Origin: Erysipelothrix sp. HDW6C
GTDB taxonomy: Bacteria; Bacillota_I; Bacilli_A; Erysipelotrichales; Erysipelotrichaceae
Reading direction: 5' to 3'
Assembly: GCF_011299615.1 (NCBI RefSeq)
Contig: NZ_CP049861.1
Coordinates: forward strand, 992,001-1,056,000
Length of the DNA stretch: 64,000 nt
Below are positions 4,307 to 43,612 of the stretch, piece by piece. Below the pieces are notes generated by a model. That model had not been told where the DNA came from, did not search any database, and saw nothing but the letters and a program-made list of their open reading frames with translations. The position numbers and the translations under genes are program-made. Position 1 is the first letter of the stretch, and the number at the start of each line of letters is the position of its first letter.

Positions 4307-4324
4307 ATGTGTGGAGGAAAGAAA

Positions 4325-4828
4325 ATGGAGATTACAAAAAAGACAATTCGTGATCGCGATGAACTTGCCCGATATCTAAAAACGATATCAAAAGAACTTC
4401 AAGCCGTTGCTTATTCATTTATGGGTGACACAGTCTTGGTTGACGATGTCATCAGTGAAACAGTAGTAAAAGTCTTCAACAGTCGCAAGAAAGTTAAACA
4501 TCCAGAATTCTTTAAAACGTGGATTATTCGTATTTTAATCAATACGTGCAAGGATACGTTGATTGCCCAAAACAAGTATGTTGAGTTGTTTGACGAGGAT
4601 TTAATCCTAAGTACGGAAAATAGTAACGATGCATATGCCTACGTACATGACTATGTTGATGAACTCCCATTTATTGAGCGAGAAGTAATTACACTCAAAG
4701 TTTTTAGTGGCTATACATTTAAAGAAATTAGTGAAATTATAGAAGTACCCGAGGGAACAGCAAAAACACGCTATTATGCCGGTCTTAAGCGTCTTAAATT
4801 AGAAATGGAGGAGCTATCTTATGAATAA
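4325..4828 (+). CDS. ECF-type RNA polymerase sigma factor
   Basis: A 167-residue sigma-70 family protein with region 2 (YSFMGDTVLVDDVISETVVKVFNSRK, then HPEFFKTWIIRILINTCKD) and region 4 (LPFIEREVITLKVFSGYTFKEISEIIEVPEGTAKTR). An ATG at 4307 is in frame, but the SD GTGGAGGA lies between it and 4325, so 4325 is the start. The last 8 bases overlap the downstream membrane protein, the typical coupling of an ECF sigma with its anti-sigma factor. The regulon cannot be read from the sequence; a matching promoter may lie upstream of this operon. Confidence 0.9.
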   Translation: MEITKKTIRDRDELARYLKTISKELQAVAYSFMGDTVLVDDVISETVVKVFNSRKKVKHPEFFKTWIIRILINTCKDTLIAQNKYVELFDEDLILSTENSNDAYAYVHDYVDELPFIEREVITLKVFSGYTFKEISEIIEVPEGTAKTRYYAGLKRLKLEMEELSYE

Positions 4829-6392
4829 AAACCAATTTGAGCAATGGAAGCAAATGGTTGATGAGAACTCTGAACGAAATTTAGATGATATTATTGATGC
4901 TTCTCTAGATCAAGCACAAAAAGAAGAAAAGCGAAAGAATATATTTAAAGGAGCAGGGACCATTTTCTCAACAATCCTTGTATTCACTTTAATGGTTAAC
5001 TTTAGTAATTCGTTTTATGTTTTTGCACAAGAAGTTCCAGTATTGCGTGAAATAAGCAGTTTATTACGGTTCGCTGAATATAAGAAGGAAACTATGGTAG
5101 TTCCAAATAAACCGATTGAACCTGAAAAACCTTCGGATATAGATAAACCAACCAATCCACAGGAGTCCAATGATTCGAAATCGGTAAACTTCGATGTAGG
5201 ATATATGTCGGGCATGGTTACGAGTATGTCGCCCATAGATATTACGGTCAATGAATATGGACCAAAGGGAGTCGACGGTATTAACTATTACCCAACGGGT
5301 CCCTATAAAGATGGTTGGATCATGAAGGGTTATGAGGTGAATACACCCGCAATTTCTACCTATGATGTTGATTACATTTTCGAAAGTCCAACCGATATCT
5401 ATAAAATACTTCCGAAGATGAACCCAATAGATCCTTATTCTGGTGGACCAATTGACAACCTCATCCCAAGTGTTCAAAAACTTATTGACGATTACCCCTA
5501 TGTTGTACCTTTTGGGAATTCTATTTATGCACAAATGATTGTAATCAATGATAAAACCTACTTTGTGTACAGAACAAATAAAGAGCGTGATGAAAGTGCG
5601 CAGACACACTACCTTACAGTAGTGGAGTATGACATTACACAAGGAAGCTGGAGGGCGCATGGTATTTTCGATGCTAAGGCGTATCCAACGGATGCACGTA
5701 TTAAATATTTGGAAGAACACAATGGTAAACCATATTTAACATATGATAGGAATTATGGAGATGCCACATGCAACATGTTTCACGCTATTGATGCAGATCC
5801 TGAGTCAGGAAAGCTTGACTGCTTCGACGGATCGGCATCTGGAAATGTGTATACTAAACCCAATTTAGTTCAAAAAGAGGAGAATTTACGTGTTTATTCC
5901 AATAATCTCATTGAGCCTACGTACTTCTTCCAAGATGACAATCCTAAAGAAAGTCTACCGGGTTTCACAACGTCAAATCTACATGTGTATACAGATGATG
6001 GCTATAAATACAGTTTCTCCGAACATTATAATTTAAAAATAGTTGGTAAGTACTTACTGCTTGCTCATGAAGACTTGACCTATAGGGTTATTAACACTGA
6101 AACGGATATGTATGACACGTTTACATCATTATCAGAAGTACAAAAATGGCTGAATAATAAAGGTATCGAGGCATTGTTGGTAAATGTTTCGTCATTTGGT
6201 GATGAATTTGGCATTCAAGGCAAGTTTGCCCAAACAGCTTGGCCAAATTACAGAAGGAATGATTTTGAGACTAGTGGTTCCAAACCCAATCCACATTTTA
6301 TTCTCATCGGTGATGGTAAACCTTACCGCATAATTTCAGGAAGTGAAGCGGTGGATGACTGGCGAGAAATTGTTATTACACCTCGAAAATGA
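4821..6392 (+). CDS. Transmembrane anti-sigma factor-like protein with large extracytoplasmic domain
   Basis: The 523-residue product has a charged cytoplasmic segment (1-43), one membrane span (about 44-64, FKGAGTIFSTILVFTLMVNF) and about 455 outside residues starting with SFYVFAQEVPVLREISSLLRF, a pattern seen in DUF4179-type anti-sigma proteins. Residues near 90-110 form a Pro/Lys-rich linker (PNKPIEPEKPSDIDKPTNP). By position and 8-base overlap it most likely holds the sigma factor at the membrane and releases it on an envelope signal. The ectodomain is not one I recognise functionally, but it has a clear paralogue at 18886-20304. Both end with a similar block (GIEALLVNV..., then RIISGS...W.EIV). 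The outside domain is unusually large for this family. Confidence 0.75.
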   Translation: MNKNQFEQWKQMVDENSERNLDDIIDASLDQAQKEEKRKNIFKGAGTIFSTILVFTLMVNFSNSFYVFAQEVPVLREISSLLRFAEYKKETMVVPNKPIEPEKPSDIDKPTNPQESNDSKSVNFDVGYMSGMVTSMSPIDITVNEYGPKGVDGINYYPTGPYKDGWIMKGYEVNTPAISTYDVDYIFESPTDIYKILPKMNPIDPYSGGPIDNLIPSVQKLIDDYPYVVPFGNSIYAQMIVINDKTYFVYRTNKERDESAQTHYLTVVEYDITQGSWRAHGIFDAKAYPTDARIKYLEEHNGKPYLTYDRNYGDATCNMFHAIDADPESGKLDCFDGSASGNVYTKPNLVQKEENLRVYSNNLIEPTYFFQDDNPKESLPGFTTSNLHVYTDDGYKYSFSEHYNLKIVGKYLLLAHEDLTYRVINTETDMYDTFTSLSEVQKWLNNKGIEALLVNVSSFGDEFGIQGKFAQTAWPNYRRNDFETSGSKPNPHFILIGDGKPYRIISGSEAVDDWREIVITPRK

Positions 6393-6409: not shown

Positions 6410-6440
6410 AGTGTTGGTGAGAAGTCACCAACACTTTTTA
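6410..6440 (+). terminator. Intrinsic terminator after the anti-sigma gene
   Basis: AGTGTTGGTGA (6410-6420) and TCACCAACACT (6425-6435) form an 11-bp stem with a GAAG loop followed by TTTT. Confidence 0.93.
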
Positions 6441-18839: not shown

Positions 18840-18862
18840 GACGATTTATTCGTCTTTTTTTT
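18838..18862 (+). terminator. Intrinsic terminator after deoD
   Basis: AAGACGA and TCGTCTT (18838-18844, 18850-18856) with a T run; the 5' arm overlaps the stop codon. Confidence 0.88.
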
Positions 18863-18885
18863 AGGGGATAGAATAGGATAGATTC

Positions 18886-20304
18886 ATGAACTCAGACAAA
18901 ATTAATAACATAAAAAAGTATGTTGGCATTGTGGGAGTATCTGTGCTGGTATTTGGAATACTCATCAATTACAACCTTTCATTCTATAGATTTATGAAAC
19001 AGATTCCGGTTATAGATATACTTGCCAATGGCATGAAGTTCACAACCGTGGGTAAAGACAAAGGAAAAGGGGTACCATTCACGTATAAAGATGATGCAAT
19101 CCATTACAATATCGTGAGAATCACACCTGAATATGAACTTGAAACTACGGTTAATGATTTTGATGGCCATAATATCAAAGAATTAAGGTATGTCCCCGTG
19201 CGCAATCATAATGATTATTGGGTTATGTATGGATATACAAATGAAGATGCCAAAGATACATCAATCAAAGACATCATTTATGAAACAAAACATAAAATGA
19301 TGAAACCCGTCAATGAAAAATATCTTTCCGGCGATCATTTTGTTGCACAAAACGATGATTTCAGGGACATTTTGTGGCAATACAAAATTAGCGATTTACA
19401 CTTTAATGCGGATGGTGTGTATTACGAAGATGAAGTAGCGTACTTTCCAGTCCAATTGACTGAAGGTCGAGAAGAGAATCAACGCCGTTTCAATGCGGTA
19501 TTATCAAATGCTTCGAATGGGTATGAATGGTATATGTATCCACCTTACGAGACGACTTCTGATTTGAGTTTGCAAAGAATATATTTTGATGGTACGAATA
19601 TACGTCTTCTTTATCCATATGAGCCACAAATGATACAAGACCCCAAAAAAGGCTGCATCATGAGTCGTTTAATCAATGATTATGCGGAACTAAGCGAGCA
19701 ATGCATTTTGTGGGATGAGTTAAAAACACCATGGGTTTCTTTAGATTCCAATGATGCGATGGTTGTGGGAGTTCAGGCAAAAAACACCAGAGACATTATT
19801 GGAACAAACCTGGAGACTTTATCAGATGGCGATGATTTTACATACCAACATATAATTCAAATACGAACAGTCGACGGTCGGGCTCGGACATATTCTGTAA
19901 GACAAACAAACGAAAGTCCCTTGGAATATACATTGTTTGATCATAAACTGATTGTGACAACACAAACAAAGCACGATATTGTAGTTATTGATACACAGAC
20001 TGACAAGGTTAATTCCTACGATTCATTAGCGAAGCTTCAGGATGTTTTTGATAGCGAAGGCATTAAATCCATGCTGGTAAATGTTGCATACCGCGAAGTC
20101 TATGACGCAACAGTGCACCAACCATTTGGTCGTACAATCGTATCGGATGCGCAACAAGTCCATGGTAATAGAGAGTATGATGATAAGGGAACGTTGCAGA
20201 AAGAAACAATTCTATTCTTTAGTAAGATGTCCGATATACGTTTAATACATGGGAGTTTCTCCAATGACAAATGGACTGAAGTTACTGTGATGTTTGAACG
20301 CTAA
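18886..20304 (+). CDS. Membrane-anchored paralogue of the anti-sigma ectodomain, without sigma-binding segment
   Basis: The 472-residue protein has only about 11 cytoplasmic residues, a membrane span (IKKYVGIVGVSVLVFGILINY, about 9-29) and an outside domain beginning SFYRFMKQIPVIDILANGMKF. This aligns with SFYVFAQEVPVLREISSLLRF of the protein at 4821-6392. The C-terminal blocks also match: YDSLAKLQDVFDSEGIKSMLVNV with YDTFTSLSEVQKWLNNKGIEALLVNV, and RLIHGSF...WTEV with RIISGSE...WREI. It lacks the roughly 40-residue cytoplasmic region of its paralogue and has no sigma gene beside it. It probably shares the same extracytoplasmic ligand or partner. The SD is AGGATAG; it directly follows the deoD terminator. 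Confidence 0.7.
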   Translation: MNSDKINNIKKYVGIVGVSVLVFGILINYNLSFYRFMKQIPVIDILANGMKFTTVGKDKGKGVPFTYKDDAIHYNIVRITPEYELETTVNDFDGHNIKELRYVPVRNHNDYWVMYGYTNEDAKDTSIKDIIYETKHKMMKPVNEKYLSGDHFVAQNDDFRDILWQYKISDLHFNADGVYYEDEVAYFPVQLTEGREENQRRFNAVLSNASNGYEWYMYPPYETTSDLSLQRIYFDGTNIRLLYPYEPQMIQDPKKGCIMSRLINDYAELSEQCILWDELKTPWVSLDSNDAMVVGVQAKNTRDIIGTNLETLSDGDDFTYQHIIQIRTVDGRARTYSVRQTNESPLEYTLFDHKLIVTTQTKHDIVVIDTQTDKVNSYDSLAKLQDVFDSEGIKSMLVNVAYREVYDATVHQPFGRTIVSDAQQVHGNREYDDKGTLQKETILFFSKMSDIRLIHGSFSNDKWTEVTVMFER

Positions 20305-20349
20305 ATTCTTTAATAATTGTGCACGTTCAGTGATGAAATAGCATAGTAA

Positions 20350-20378
20350 TTGTTTGATTGAACATGAATGAATATAAT
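20350..20378 (+). promoter_or_regulatory. Predicted promoter of a non-coding transcript
   Basis: TTGTTT (20350-20355), a 17-base spacer and TATAAT (20373-20378) form a near-ideal promoter with no ORF downstream before a terminator at 20604-20632. Confidence 0.55.
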
Positions 20379-20384
20379 GGAATT

Positions 20385-20632
20385 AGCATACATCAATACT
20401 GAGAGTTGTATGCAGGAATGCTGCATTAAATAGTTTCATTATGTTTGCGCGTCAAGTCCCCGAGAACGGCATCTATAATGACTCTATAATATTTACGTAT
20501 CTGGCACCATTGATCTGATCCTTTCGAATAACTCCCTGTTAGTAGAGAACATGGTAACAATAATAATGAACCATGAGATTCGCTGGATACGTAAATGTTC
20601 TTAAAAAGACTGAAATAACGCAGTCTTTTTTT
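20385..20632 (+). ncRNA. Candidate structured non-coding RNA (about 250 nt), class unknown
   Basis: Downstream of a good promoter lie several structures. The hairpin GCATACA...TGTATGC lies near 20387-20413. A long-range stem pairs ATTTACGTATC (20491-20501) with GATACGTAAAT (20586-20596) and extends by TGGC/GCTG. An internal CATGGT...ACCATG hairpin follows. The transcript ends in a classic intrinsic terminator AAAAGACTG/CAGTCTTTT (20604-20612, 20621-20629) with Ts. Two TATAAT boxes inside (20474-20479, 20485-20490) could start a shorter, 6S-sized form. I could not match SRP RNA, RNase P RNA, tmRNA, T-box or common riboswitch motifs. A 6S-like role is possible but unproven. Confidence 0.5.
20604..20632 (+). 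terminator. Intrinsic terminator of the candidate RNA
   Basis: A nine-base stem AAAAGACTG/CAGTCTTTT with loop AAATAACG and a T run. Confidence 0.88.
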
Positions 20633-20651
20633 GTGTCAAAACTCAATCGTT

Positions 20652-20661
20652 TACATTTGTA
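20652..20661. promoter_or_regulatory. cop box 1 (CopY-type operator)
   Basis: TACATTTGTA fits the CopY-family box TACANNTGTA and lies upstream of the predicted copZ promoter. Confidence 0.72.
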
Positions 20662-20681
20662 AATTAATTCGGTTGAAATGC

Positions 20682-20710
20682 TTGCGCTCATTAAAAAGAT
20701 ATGATAGACT
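20682..20710 (+). promoter_or_regulatory. Predicted copZA promoter
   Basis: TTGCGC (20682-20687), a 17-base spacer and TAGACT (20705-20710) lie between the two cop boxes. Confidence 0.45.
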
Positions 20711-20719
20711 ACAAATGTA
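20710..20719. promoter_or_regulatory. cop box 2 (CopY-type operator)
   Basis: TACAAATGTA fits TACANNTGTA and overlaps the end of the -10 box, where a bound repressor would block transcription. No copY gene is in the window. Confidence 0.72.
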
Positions 20720-20744
20720 AACGAACTACAAGGAGGTTACGAAA

Positions 20745-20945
20745 ATGGAAAAAGAATTTAAAGTAAATGGTATGACATGTGGCGGCTGTGTTCGACATGT
20801 AACTCATGCACTCAATGAACTTGAAGGCGTATCGAATGTCAATGTCGATTTAGAAACTGGGATTGCGAAAGTTGTCGTAAGTGAAACTGTTACTGACGAC
20901 CAAATCGTAAATGCAGTTAAAGAAAGTGGCTATTCAGTTCAATAG
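20745..20945 (+). CDS. copZ: CopZ-type copper chaperone (single HMA domain)
   Basis: A 66-residue protein that is one HMA domain: KEFKVNGMTCGGCVRHV carries the metal-binding CxxC (Cys-Gly-Gly-Cys), then ALNELEGVSNVNVDLETGIAKVVV and the closing ESGYSVQ. It is expected to bind Cu(I) and hand it to CopA, which follows after 22 bases. The SD is AAGGAGG. Two cop boxes upstream point to copper-induced expression through a CopY-type repressor. Confidence 0.92.
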   Translation: MEKEFKVNGMTCGGCVRHVTHALNELEGVSNVNVDLETGIAKVVVSETVTDDQIVNAVKESGYSVQ

Positions 20946-20967
20946 TTAACGTCCAGAGGTAAAAGGT

Positions 20968-23421
20968 ATGTCAACAAAAACATTTGATATAACAGGAATG
21001 ACATGTTCGTCATGTCAAACTCATGTTGAAAAAGCAATCGCCAAGGTTGACGGTGTTTCATCCGTCGATGTCAACTTGGTTACCAATAAAGCCAGTGTCA
21101 CGATGGATGATACCGTTGCTGATTCAGAAATTGTGGCCGCAGTTGAAAAAAGTGGCTATGGTGTTGCTGAACAAGCAATCAACAAATCTGTTGATTTGAA
21201 AATCACAGATATGACATGTTCATCGTGTGTTGCCAATGTCGAAGGGGCGCTTAATGCCCTCGACGGTGTGTCATCTGCACGCGTGAATCTCATCACTGAA
21301 AAAGCTCATGTCGACTATAATCCTAATGAAATTAAACTGGTAGATATTATTGCTGCAGTTGAGGGGCAAGGATATGGTGCGGTTCGTATGGAAGATGTAG
21401 TAGCGCTGGATGATGATGAGATCAAGAAAGCACATCAAAAAGAAAAGAATGGTGTTCTAATTGGTTTGATCTTGGCCGCAATTATGCTGTATATCACCAT
21501 GGGTCAAATGTTTGCCGTAAAATTACCAATGCCTCGGTTTGTTGACGCAACATTAAGCCCTGTAAGTTATACAATTGTGCAATGGCTTATTACGATCCCT
21601 GTGTTATGGGTTAATCGTGATTACTATCGCCGTGGGTTTAAGACCTTATTCAATAAGTCACCAAACATGGATACTTTGGTTGCCATCGGGACAGGTGCAG
21701 CTGTTGTTTACAGTCTCTATGGAACCATTCGTATCTTTGCTGGAGAACATCATTATGCCCACCACCTCTATCTAGAGACGGCTGTTGTTATCCTAGCACT
21801 CATCAGTTTGGGTAAATATTTTGAATCCGTTAGCAAGTCAAAAACGTCTTCAGCAATTAAAGCATTGCTCAATCTCAAGCCAAAATCCGCAATCTTATTG
21901 CGAGATGGCCAAGAAATTGAAATTGATGTTGATGAAATCAGTATTGGCGATCATCTTGTTGTTAAACCAGGGTCTTCAATTCCTATGGATGGTCGTGTTG
22001 TTGAAGGTCACAGTAGTGTTGATGAGGCCATGTTGACGGGTGAGAGTATGCCGGTTGATAAGGAAATTGGTGACGATGTCGTCATGGGAACCATGAACAT
22101 CAATGGTCGCTTGATTGTTGAAGCAACAGTCAACAATGAGGATACAAAACTCGCTAAAATTGTTGAACTTGTAGAGAATGCACAAAATGAAAAAGCTCCG
22201 ATTTCAAAAGTTGCTGATAAAGTGTCGGGCATCTTTGTTCCGATTGTCATCTTGATCTCAATTATTTCCGGTCTCTTCTGGTTTTTCTACAGTGGAGATG
22301 TTGAAATGAGTTTGACTGTCTTTGTAACAGTGCTCGTTATTGCATGTCCGTGTGCATTGGGTCTTGCAACACCGACTGCAATAATGGTTGGAACCGGTGT
22401 TGGTGCTCAAAACGGAATTTTCATCAAGTCAGCAGAATCTCTTGAAGAAGCATCGCATATCCAAACGGTAGTCTTCGATAAAACAGGAACGCTGACATAT
22501 GGTGAACCTGTTGTTACTGATATCGTATCCAATGAATATGACGATCATGATTTGATGACAATTGTTGGATCCATTGAACGCATGTCAGAGCATCCTCTTG
22601 CTCAAGCACTTGTGAGAGGTGCGGAAGAGATGGATGTTACCTTTGCACCCGTAGATCAATTTGAAGCACTCATCGGTCGTGGTGTTGAAGGACTTTATGA
22701 TGGAAAGAAACTCTATATCGGTAATGAAAAATTAATGCGTGAAACACTCAGTGATTATTCAGCATATGCCGGTGCAATCACAGGTTATGCACGTCATGGA
22801 AAAACAGCAATGATTGTTTCATTTGATGGAAGGGTGATTGGTGTTGTAGCAGTGGCTGATACTATTAAAGATGAAGCCATTGAAACAGTTGCTGCCCTTA
22901 AACGTATGAATATTGATGTTGTTATGATGACTGGTGACCATAAAGATACTGCGAAAGCAATAGCCGACCAAATTGGAATAACACATGTTTTATCAGAAAT
23001 ATTACCAGACGAAAAAGCAAGTAATATTAAATTGATTCAGGACGAAGGTAAAAAGGTAATGATGGTTGGCGATGGTATTAATGATGCAATTGCGCTTGTT
23101 CAAAGTGACGTAGGAATTGCCGTTGGAACGGGAACTGATGTTGCCATTGAGTCTGCGAAGATTGTTCTCATGAAGGATAATATCAAAGATGTTGTAAATG
23201 CACTTGCGTTGAGTAAAGCAACCATGAGAAATATCAAGCAAAACCTATTCTGGGCCTTTGCTTACAATGTTATTGGAATTCCCTTTGCGATGGGGCTATT
23301 CAAACTCCTCTTCAATGGTCCAATGTTGGATCCTATGATTGCGGGAGCAGCAATGGCATTCTCATCCGTATCGGTTGTGGCCAATGCATTGAGATTACGC
23401 CGTTTTAAAATGAAAGTATAA
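20968..23421 (+). CDS. copA: Copper-exporting P1B-type ATPase with two HMA domains
   Basis: The 817-residue protein has two N-terminal HMA domains (GMTCSSC near 10-15, DMTCSSC near 80-85), eight expected membrane spans, actuator motif [10 protein letters not shown], the transport-site CPC in [12 protein letters not shown], phosphorylation motif [11 protein letters not shown], and SEHPLAQAL in the nucleotide domain. It closes with [14 protein letters not shown] and [31 protein letters not shown]. The Ile in [10 protein letters not shown] replaces the usual Pro of GDGINDAPAL, a mild oddity. The pump exports Cu(I) across the membrane and partners with CopZ. Start by SD AGAGGTAAAAGG. Confidence 0.95.
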
Positions 23422-43458: not shown

Positions 43459-43487
43459 TTGACTTCAACCTTTGGCAATGATACTAT
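43459..43487 (+). promoter_or_regulatory. Predicted promoter of the purine permease/xpt operon
   Basis: TTGACT (43459-43464), a 17-base spacer and TACTAT (43482-43487), placing the transcript start about 10 bases before the aptamer. Confidence 0.7.
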
Positions 43488-43502
43488 TCATACATAAAAG
43501 CT

Positions 43503-43567
43503 CCATATATTTCTGGTAATACGGTCCGGAAGTTTCTACTTGCATCCCGTAAAGATGCAAACTATGG
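43503..43567 (+). promoter_or_regulatory. Purine riboswitch aptamer, guanine-type
   Basis: All elements of the purine aptamer are visible: P1 CCATA/TATGG; P2 TTCTGG/CCGGAA with loop TAATACGGT; joining region GTTTCTAC; P3 TTGCATC/GATGCAA with loop CCGTAAA; and J3/1 ACTATGG. The cytosine in ACTATG at the specificity position indicates guanine/hypoxanthine rather than adenine. Loop-loop pairing of GG (L2) with CC (L3) is possible. Confidence 0.93.
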
Positions 43568-43612
43568 CACAAGATAGCATATGTGGTTAACACATCTTTT
43601 TTTGTTATTCTT

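Follow-up and report, generated by a model that had tools for sequence, protein, structure and literature searches.

C-rich motifs of small RNAs from Gram-positive bacteria act on Shine-Dalgarno regions, and RsaE/RoxS and LhrC combine a single-stranded motif of the UCCC type with an intrinsic terminator. Other precedents lie next to, or within, the transcript of a regulator gene. In Lactococcus, the Gram-positive small RNA ArgX lies just after argR and has a promoter of its own (PMC6586332), and it has also been presented as a small RNA made just after a regulator gene (PMC9438474). The 3' UTR of icaR from S. aureus holds a UCCCCUG motif that pairs with a Shine-Dalgarno region (PMC3868564).

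The candidate RNA described here, located in Erysipelothrix between a gene for an anti-sigma-like protein and copZA, shares features with each of these systems. Like ArgX, it lies directly after a gene and may have its own promoter, a likeness of arrangement, although its ~145–250 nt contrast with the ~66 nt of ArgX. Like icaR, the upstream gene would have a long 3' UTR (~330 nt) in which C-rich motifs are exposed (UCCCU, located in a loop, and UCCCC); unlike in icaR, however, the predicted pairing to the leader of that gene is matched by 16% of shuffles (9% are as good for the copZ leader). The UCCC-type single-stranded motif and the intrinsic terminator are common to RsaE/RoxS and LhrC, from which the candidate differs in having no Rfam match and only one strongly exposed C-rich loop. 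Most likely, it is an ordinary species-specific small RNA or mRNA tail of putative function.

Layout and fold of the candidate RNA

The region occupies the gap between the stop of the 472-aa gene at 20304 and the start of copZ at 20745. Its features are listed below, with positions counted from the first letter of the window, that is, the whole 64-kb stretch of DNA analysed:

18886-20304, plus strand: gene for an anti-sigma-like protein of 472 aa (ORF; no Pfam match)
20350-20378, plus strand: possible promoter TTGTTT-N17-TATAAT, with a perfect -10 and a weak -35
20488-20505, plus strand: 5' strand of the closing helix P1, 18 pairs (from pairing and folding)
20522-20548, plus strand: hairpin P2, with an unpaired UCCCU loop at 20533-20537 (from folding)
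20550-20575, plus strand: hairpin P3, CATGGT/ACCATG, with an AU-rich loop (from folding)
20582-20599, plus strand: 3' strand of P1 (from pairing and folding)
20603-20632, plus strand: intrinsic terminator with a 10-bp stem (20603-20612/20621-20630), an 8-nt loop and a T-run
20647-20724, plus strand: two CopY-type boxes, TTTACATTTGTAAA ... TACAAATGTAAA, one on either side of the copZA promoter, apart from the RNA
20745-23421, plus strand: copZ (66 aa) and copA (817 aa)

As the earlier note had proposed, the RNA contains no ORF of substance: those on the plus strand are all short (the longest, of 29 aa, at 20573-20662), and Pfam gave no match for the five short ORFs of the region that were scanned.

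The central element is an inverted repeat. An 11-bp perfect pairing (20491-20501/20586-20596), which the earlier note had extended to about 15 pairs, is part of a still longer helix, P1, with 18 unbroken pairs (20488-20505/20582-20599), three of them G-U, around a loop of 76 nt. Helices scoring at least as high as P1 appear at a rate of 0.025 per shuffled 64-kb window, the background being 40 shuffles of the entire window that preserve its dinucleotides. The same search recovered two other real helices: one is the hairpin that follows copA, and the other is formed by the CopY boxes, which pair because they are palindromic operators. The presence of G-U pairs at both ends of P1 would suit a stem in RNA better than two operators in DNA.

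Folding of 20486-20604 yields a minimum free energy of -32.0 kcal/mol and a z-score of -4.1, and the window at 20486 ranks fifth among the 1065 plus-strand windows of a fixed-frame z-score scan. The core of this fold consists of P1 enclosing two hairpins, P2 (UUUC/GAGA and UAAC/GUUA, closed by the UCCCU loop) and P3 (CAUGGU/ACCAUG), together with an optional stem of five pairs whose probability is near 0.45. The pair probability of P1 exceeds 0.9 for transcripts starting at 20186, 20305, 20379, and 20484, readthrough from the upstream gene included, and the UCCCU loop is unpaired with a probability of ~1. On the other hand, the 5' part (20306-20545) does not fold above chance, with z-scores of -0.6, -1.4, and -0.3 for the windows at 20306, 20366, and 20426. 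Of the several stems claimed at first, those of the 5' part are no more than chance would give. The structure is real and unusually stable, but smaller than first claimed. Elsewhere in the window, strong predicted RNA structure is found within coding sequence of the plus strand, at 1440-1600 and 1690-1900 (z-scores of -5.1 and -5.5), and these two structures outrank the candidate RNA in folding strength.

The promoter signals are weaker than had been thought. The upstream promoter consists of TTGTTT (20350-20355), a spacer of 17, and TATAAT (20373-20378), and its description as near-consensus was overstated: the -10 is perfect, but the -35 matches TTGACA at only three of six positions, and the combination is not listed by a sigma-70 scan with a threshold of at least 4/6 per hexamer. 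The window has six sequences of the form TTGNNN-N16..18-TATAAT where 4.5 would be expected, which is near chance, and the chance of one in the shuffled region is 3%. Further TATAAT boxes occur at 20474 and 20485, both with no recognisable -35, and a total of three such boxes exceeds the number expected for the region (p ~0.007). Since the 5' part carries no excess structure, the ~250-nt form has only the weak promoter behind it. The window contains eight extended -10 sites (TGNTATAAT), every one of them on the plus strand.

A putative small RNA at the 3' end of an anti-sigma-like gene

The terminator reported by the earlier note is present, with its stem at 20603-20612/20621-20630 followed by seven T, and is of an ordinary type (AAAAAGACTG...CAGTCTTTTT) that is met again elsewhere in the family. 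Neither a terminator scan nor direct reading of the sequence gave another terminator-like site on the plus strand from 20304 to 20603; the reading matters here, as the scan also misses the real terminator at 20603. The paralogue of the upstream gene (4821-6392) has its own terminator right after the stop, at 6410-6435 plus the following Ts. As no terminator of the upstream gene was recognised before 20603, the stretch that holds the RNA is also the 3' UTR of that gene, which the earlier note had overlooked, and the RNA shares its terminator with the upstream mRNA, as 3'-end-derived small RNAs with their own promoter do. The proposal that a standalone RNA is likelier than a riboswitch therefore holds only in part: a riboswitch is disfavoured, whereas a standalone RNA is not established.

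Our tentative reading is that the 3' end of the anti-sigma-like gene carries a species-restricted putative small regulatory RNA, whose transcription, processing, pairing, and targets we infer as follows. The RNA, of ~145–250 nt, would end at the terminator 20603-20632, which would also end the upstream mRNA, and would either start at its own weak promoter (20350-20378) or arise when the mRNA is trimmed back to the stable structure at 20488-20599. Its exposed C-rich stretches (the UCCCU loop at 20533-20537 and UCCCC at ~20457-20461) may then base-pair with ribosome-binding sites, a mode of action modelled on the C-rich small RNAs and 3' UTRs of Gram-positive bacteria. This interpretation is favoured by a helix far above chance, the z-score of -4.1, the stability of P1 in every transcript context tested, the presence of the terminator, the unpaired UCCCU loop, and the precedents of ArgX and icaR. 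It is weakened by the absence of a homologue, by promoter matches near chance, by an unremarkable predicted leader pairing, and by the unspecific pairing of C-rich stretches with many ribosome-binding sites. As the leader pairing is not statistically notable, no target is claimed.

A possible, though rather unlikely, alternative is a passive structured 3' UTR, in which the region is just the long untranslated tail of the 472-aa gene together with its terminator, and the helix protects the 3' end of the mRNA or has no regulatory role. The lack of an earlier terminator-like site and the weakness of the promoter fit this view, as does the frequency of 3' UTRs of more than 100 nt among S. aureus mRNAs (PMC3868564). 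However, termination does not require an 18-pair helix closing 76 nt, such a helix rarely arises by chance, and the excess of TATAAT boxes is not accounted for either.

Homologue searches and the deoD-copZA junction

Homologues of the RNA were sought at several levels. Searches with blastn in the genus, other relatives, and 392 genomes of the phylum returned no RNA homologue besides its own copy, the other matches being DNA of the CopY boxes and the start of copZ, or short ones read as AT-rich chance matches or terminators. A single-sequence covariance model run on the family and 315 genomes of the order found no relative, only weak matches; those inspected (L071 and L072 were left out of the residue-level check) align in the terminator only or poorly throughout, and most represent the terminator type. 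There was no match to the exact stem pattern in genome contigs or to the stem-and-flank pattern in viral contigs, none in plasmids or phages, and none to the RNA in the copA loci of the relatives, and a scan of viral contigs for copZ returned nothing. Within the genome, the RNA is single copy, with no repeat or second copy of the inverted repeat. A mobile element of the MITE or inverted-repeat type was considered and rejected, given the single copy and the lack of a target duplication by eye. Judged from these searches, the RNA appears to be restricted to one species among those covered. Consequently, the covariation check named in the earlier note has no homologue to draw on, which neither supports nor refutes the RNA.

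The upstream gene is similarly isolated. It is absent from the other genomes of the genus and from 315 genomes of the order, and no relative was found in genome contigs, viral contigs, or the order except a paralogue in its own genome, the 523-aa anti-sigma-like gene at 4821-6392, with 20% identity. This paralogue follows a sigma-factor-like gene, both being located at 4307-6392.

The genus search comprised 13 genomes, including this one, and the full copA locus was compared in ten relatives. Nine of the ten have deoD immediately before copA or copZ, with gaps of ~100–140 bp (five genomes), ~370–405 bp (two), or ~1.2 kb (two; L031 and L032), and in the remaining one (L033) there is no deoD within the 1.5 kb examined upstream. 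The gap in the present genome measures ~1.9 kb and contains the 472-aa gene and the RNA. In L031, the gap is occupied by two small ORFs, both unrelated, and by a separate hairpin terminator, CGCGAACAC...GTGTTCGCG plus a T-run (1080-1170 of L031), which immediately precedes the copZA CopY boxes and is unrelated in sequence to the terminator 20603-20632. The deoD-copZA junction (18840-20745 in the window; L031-L040) is a variable insertion site: the two loci are close together in several relatives of the genus, whereas L031/L032 and the present genome have different inserts, each unique.

Such variability would also suit a neutral remnant left at the junction by a lineage-specific insertion, with a fold that is accidental or a relic. 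This explanation, which we regard as unlikely, agrees with inserts that differ between relatives, with a sequence unique to the species, and with an unstructured 5' half, but not with the rarity of the helix in shuffled windows, the intact terminator, or the lack of repeats or a second inverted-repeat copy elsewhere in the genome.

Returning to the putative small regulatory RNA, if expressed, it would be a young regulatory RNA that arose together with a gene recently inserted at a variable junction of the chromosome. A stronger version, in which a new species-specific structured regulatory RNA, with its helix around two hairpins and its C-rich loop, was gained with the anti-sigma-like gene at the deoD-copZA junction and links envelope-stress or copper regulation, is decidedly doubtful. 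A literature search found no dedicated small-RNA study of Erysipelothrix, and the lineage is probably poor in small-RNA data; even if expressed, this RNA would leave the understanding of RNA classes unchanged.

Known RNA classes and the control of copZA

The earlier note held that the RNA fits no common class and asked for an Rfam scan, and the outcome agrees with it: Rfam 15 gave no match in the RNA region at the gathering cut-off, and at E-values up to 10 (including RsaE/RoxS and the known riboswitches) only chance-level matches far below the cut-offs. Neither a tRNA nor a tmRNA was found.

A cis-acting leader of copZA, either a riboswitch or an attenuator setting readthrough at 20603-20632, is very improbable. 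The order of structured domain, terminator, and copZA is the one expected for it, but copZA has its own promoter region after the terminator, just as had been claimed, with CopY-type boxes at 20647-20661/20710-20724 (the CopY operator being TACANNTGTA; PMC7253601). Furthermore, P1 and the terminator do not overlap, the copA loci of the relatives show no match, and there is no strong antiterminator partner, since the 5' arm of the terminator pairs upstream only partially before the 3' arm is made: at most 0.5 for a start at 20379 and 0.25 for one at 20484, with 0.7–0.9 reached only for a start at 20305 and for part of the arm. These data support an unclassified structured RNA and not a copZA riboswitch. 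A second 6S RNA, which the earlier note thought conceivable and which would agree with the intergenic position and with the long helix that RF00013 members also have, is hardly credible, as there is no RF00013 match even at E-values up to 10, the genuine 6S RNA of the genome is located elsewhere (G000:C1:1404053-1404210, 48.2 bits), and the fold is a closed helix around two hairpins, not a rod whose central bubble mimics an open promoter.

The same window does hold a known riboswitch at a distance from this region, a purine riboswitch aptamer on the plus strand at 43483-43584 (78.5 bits).
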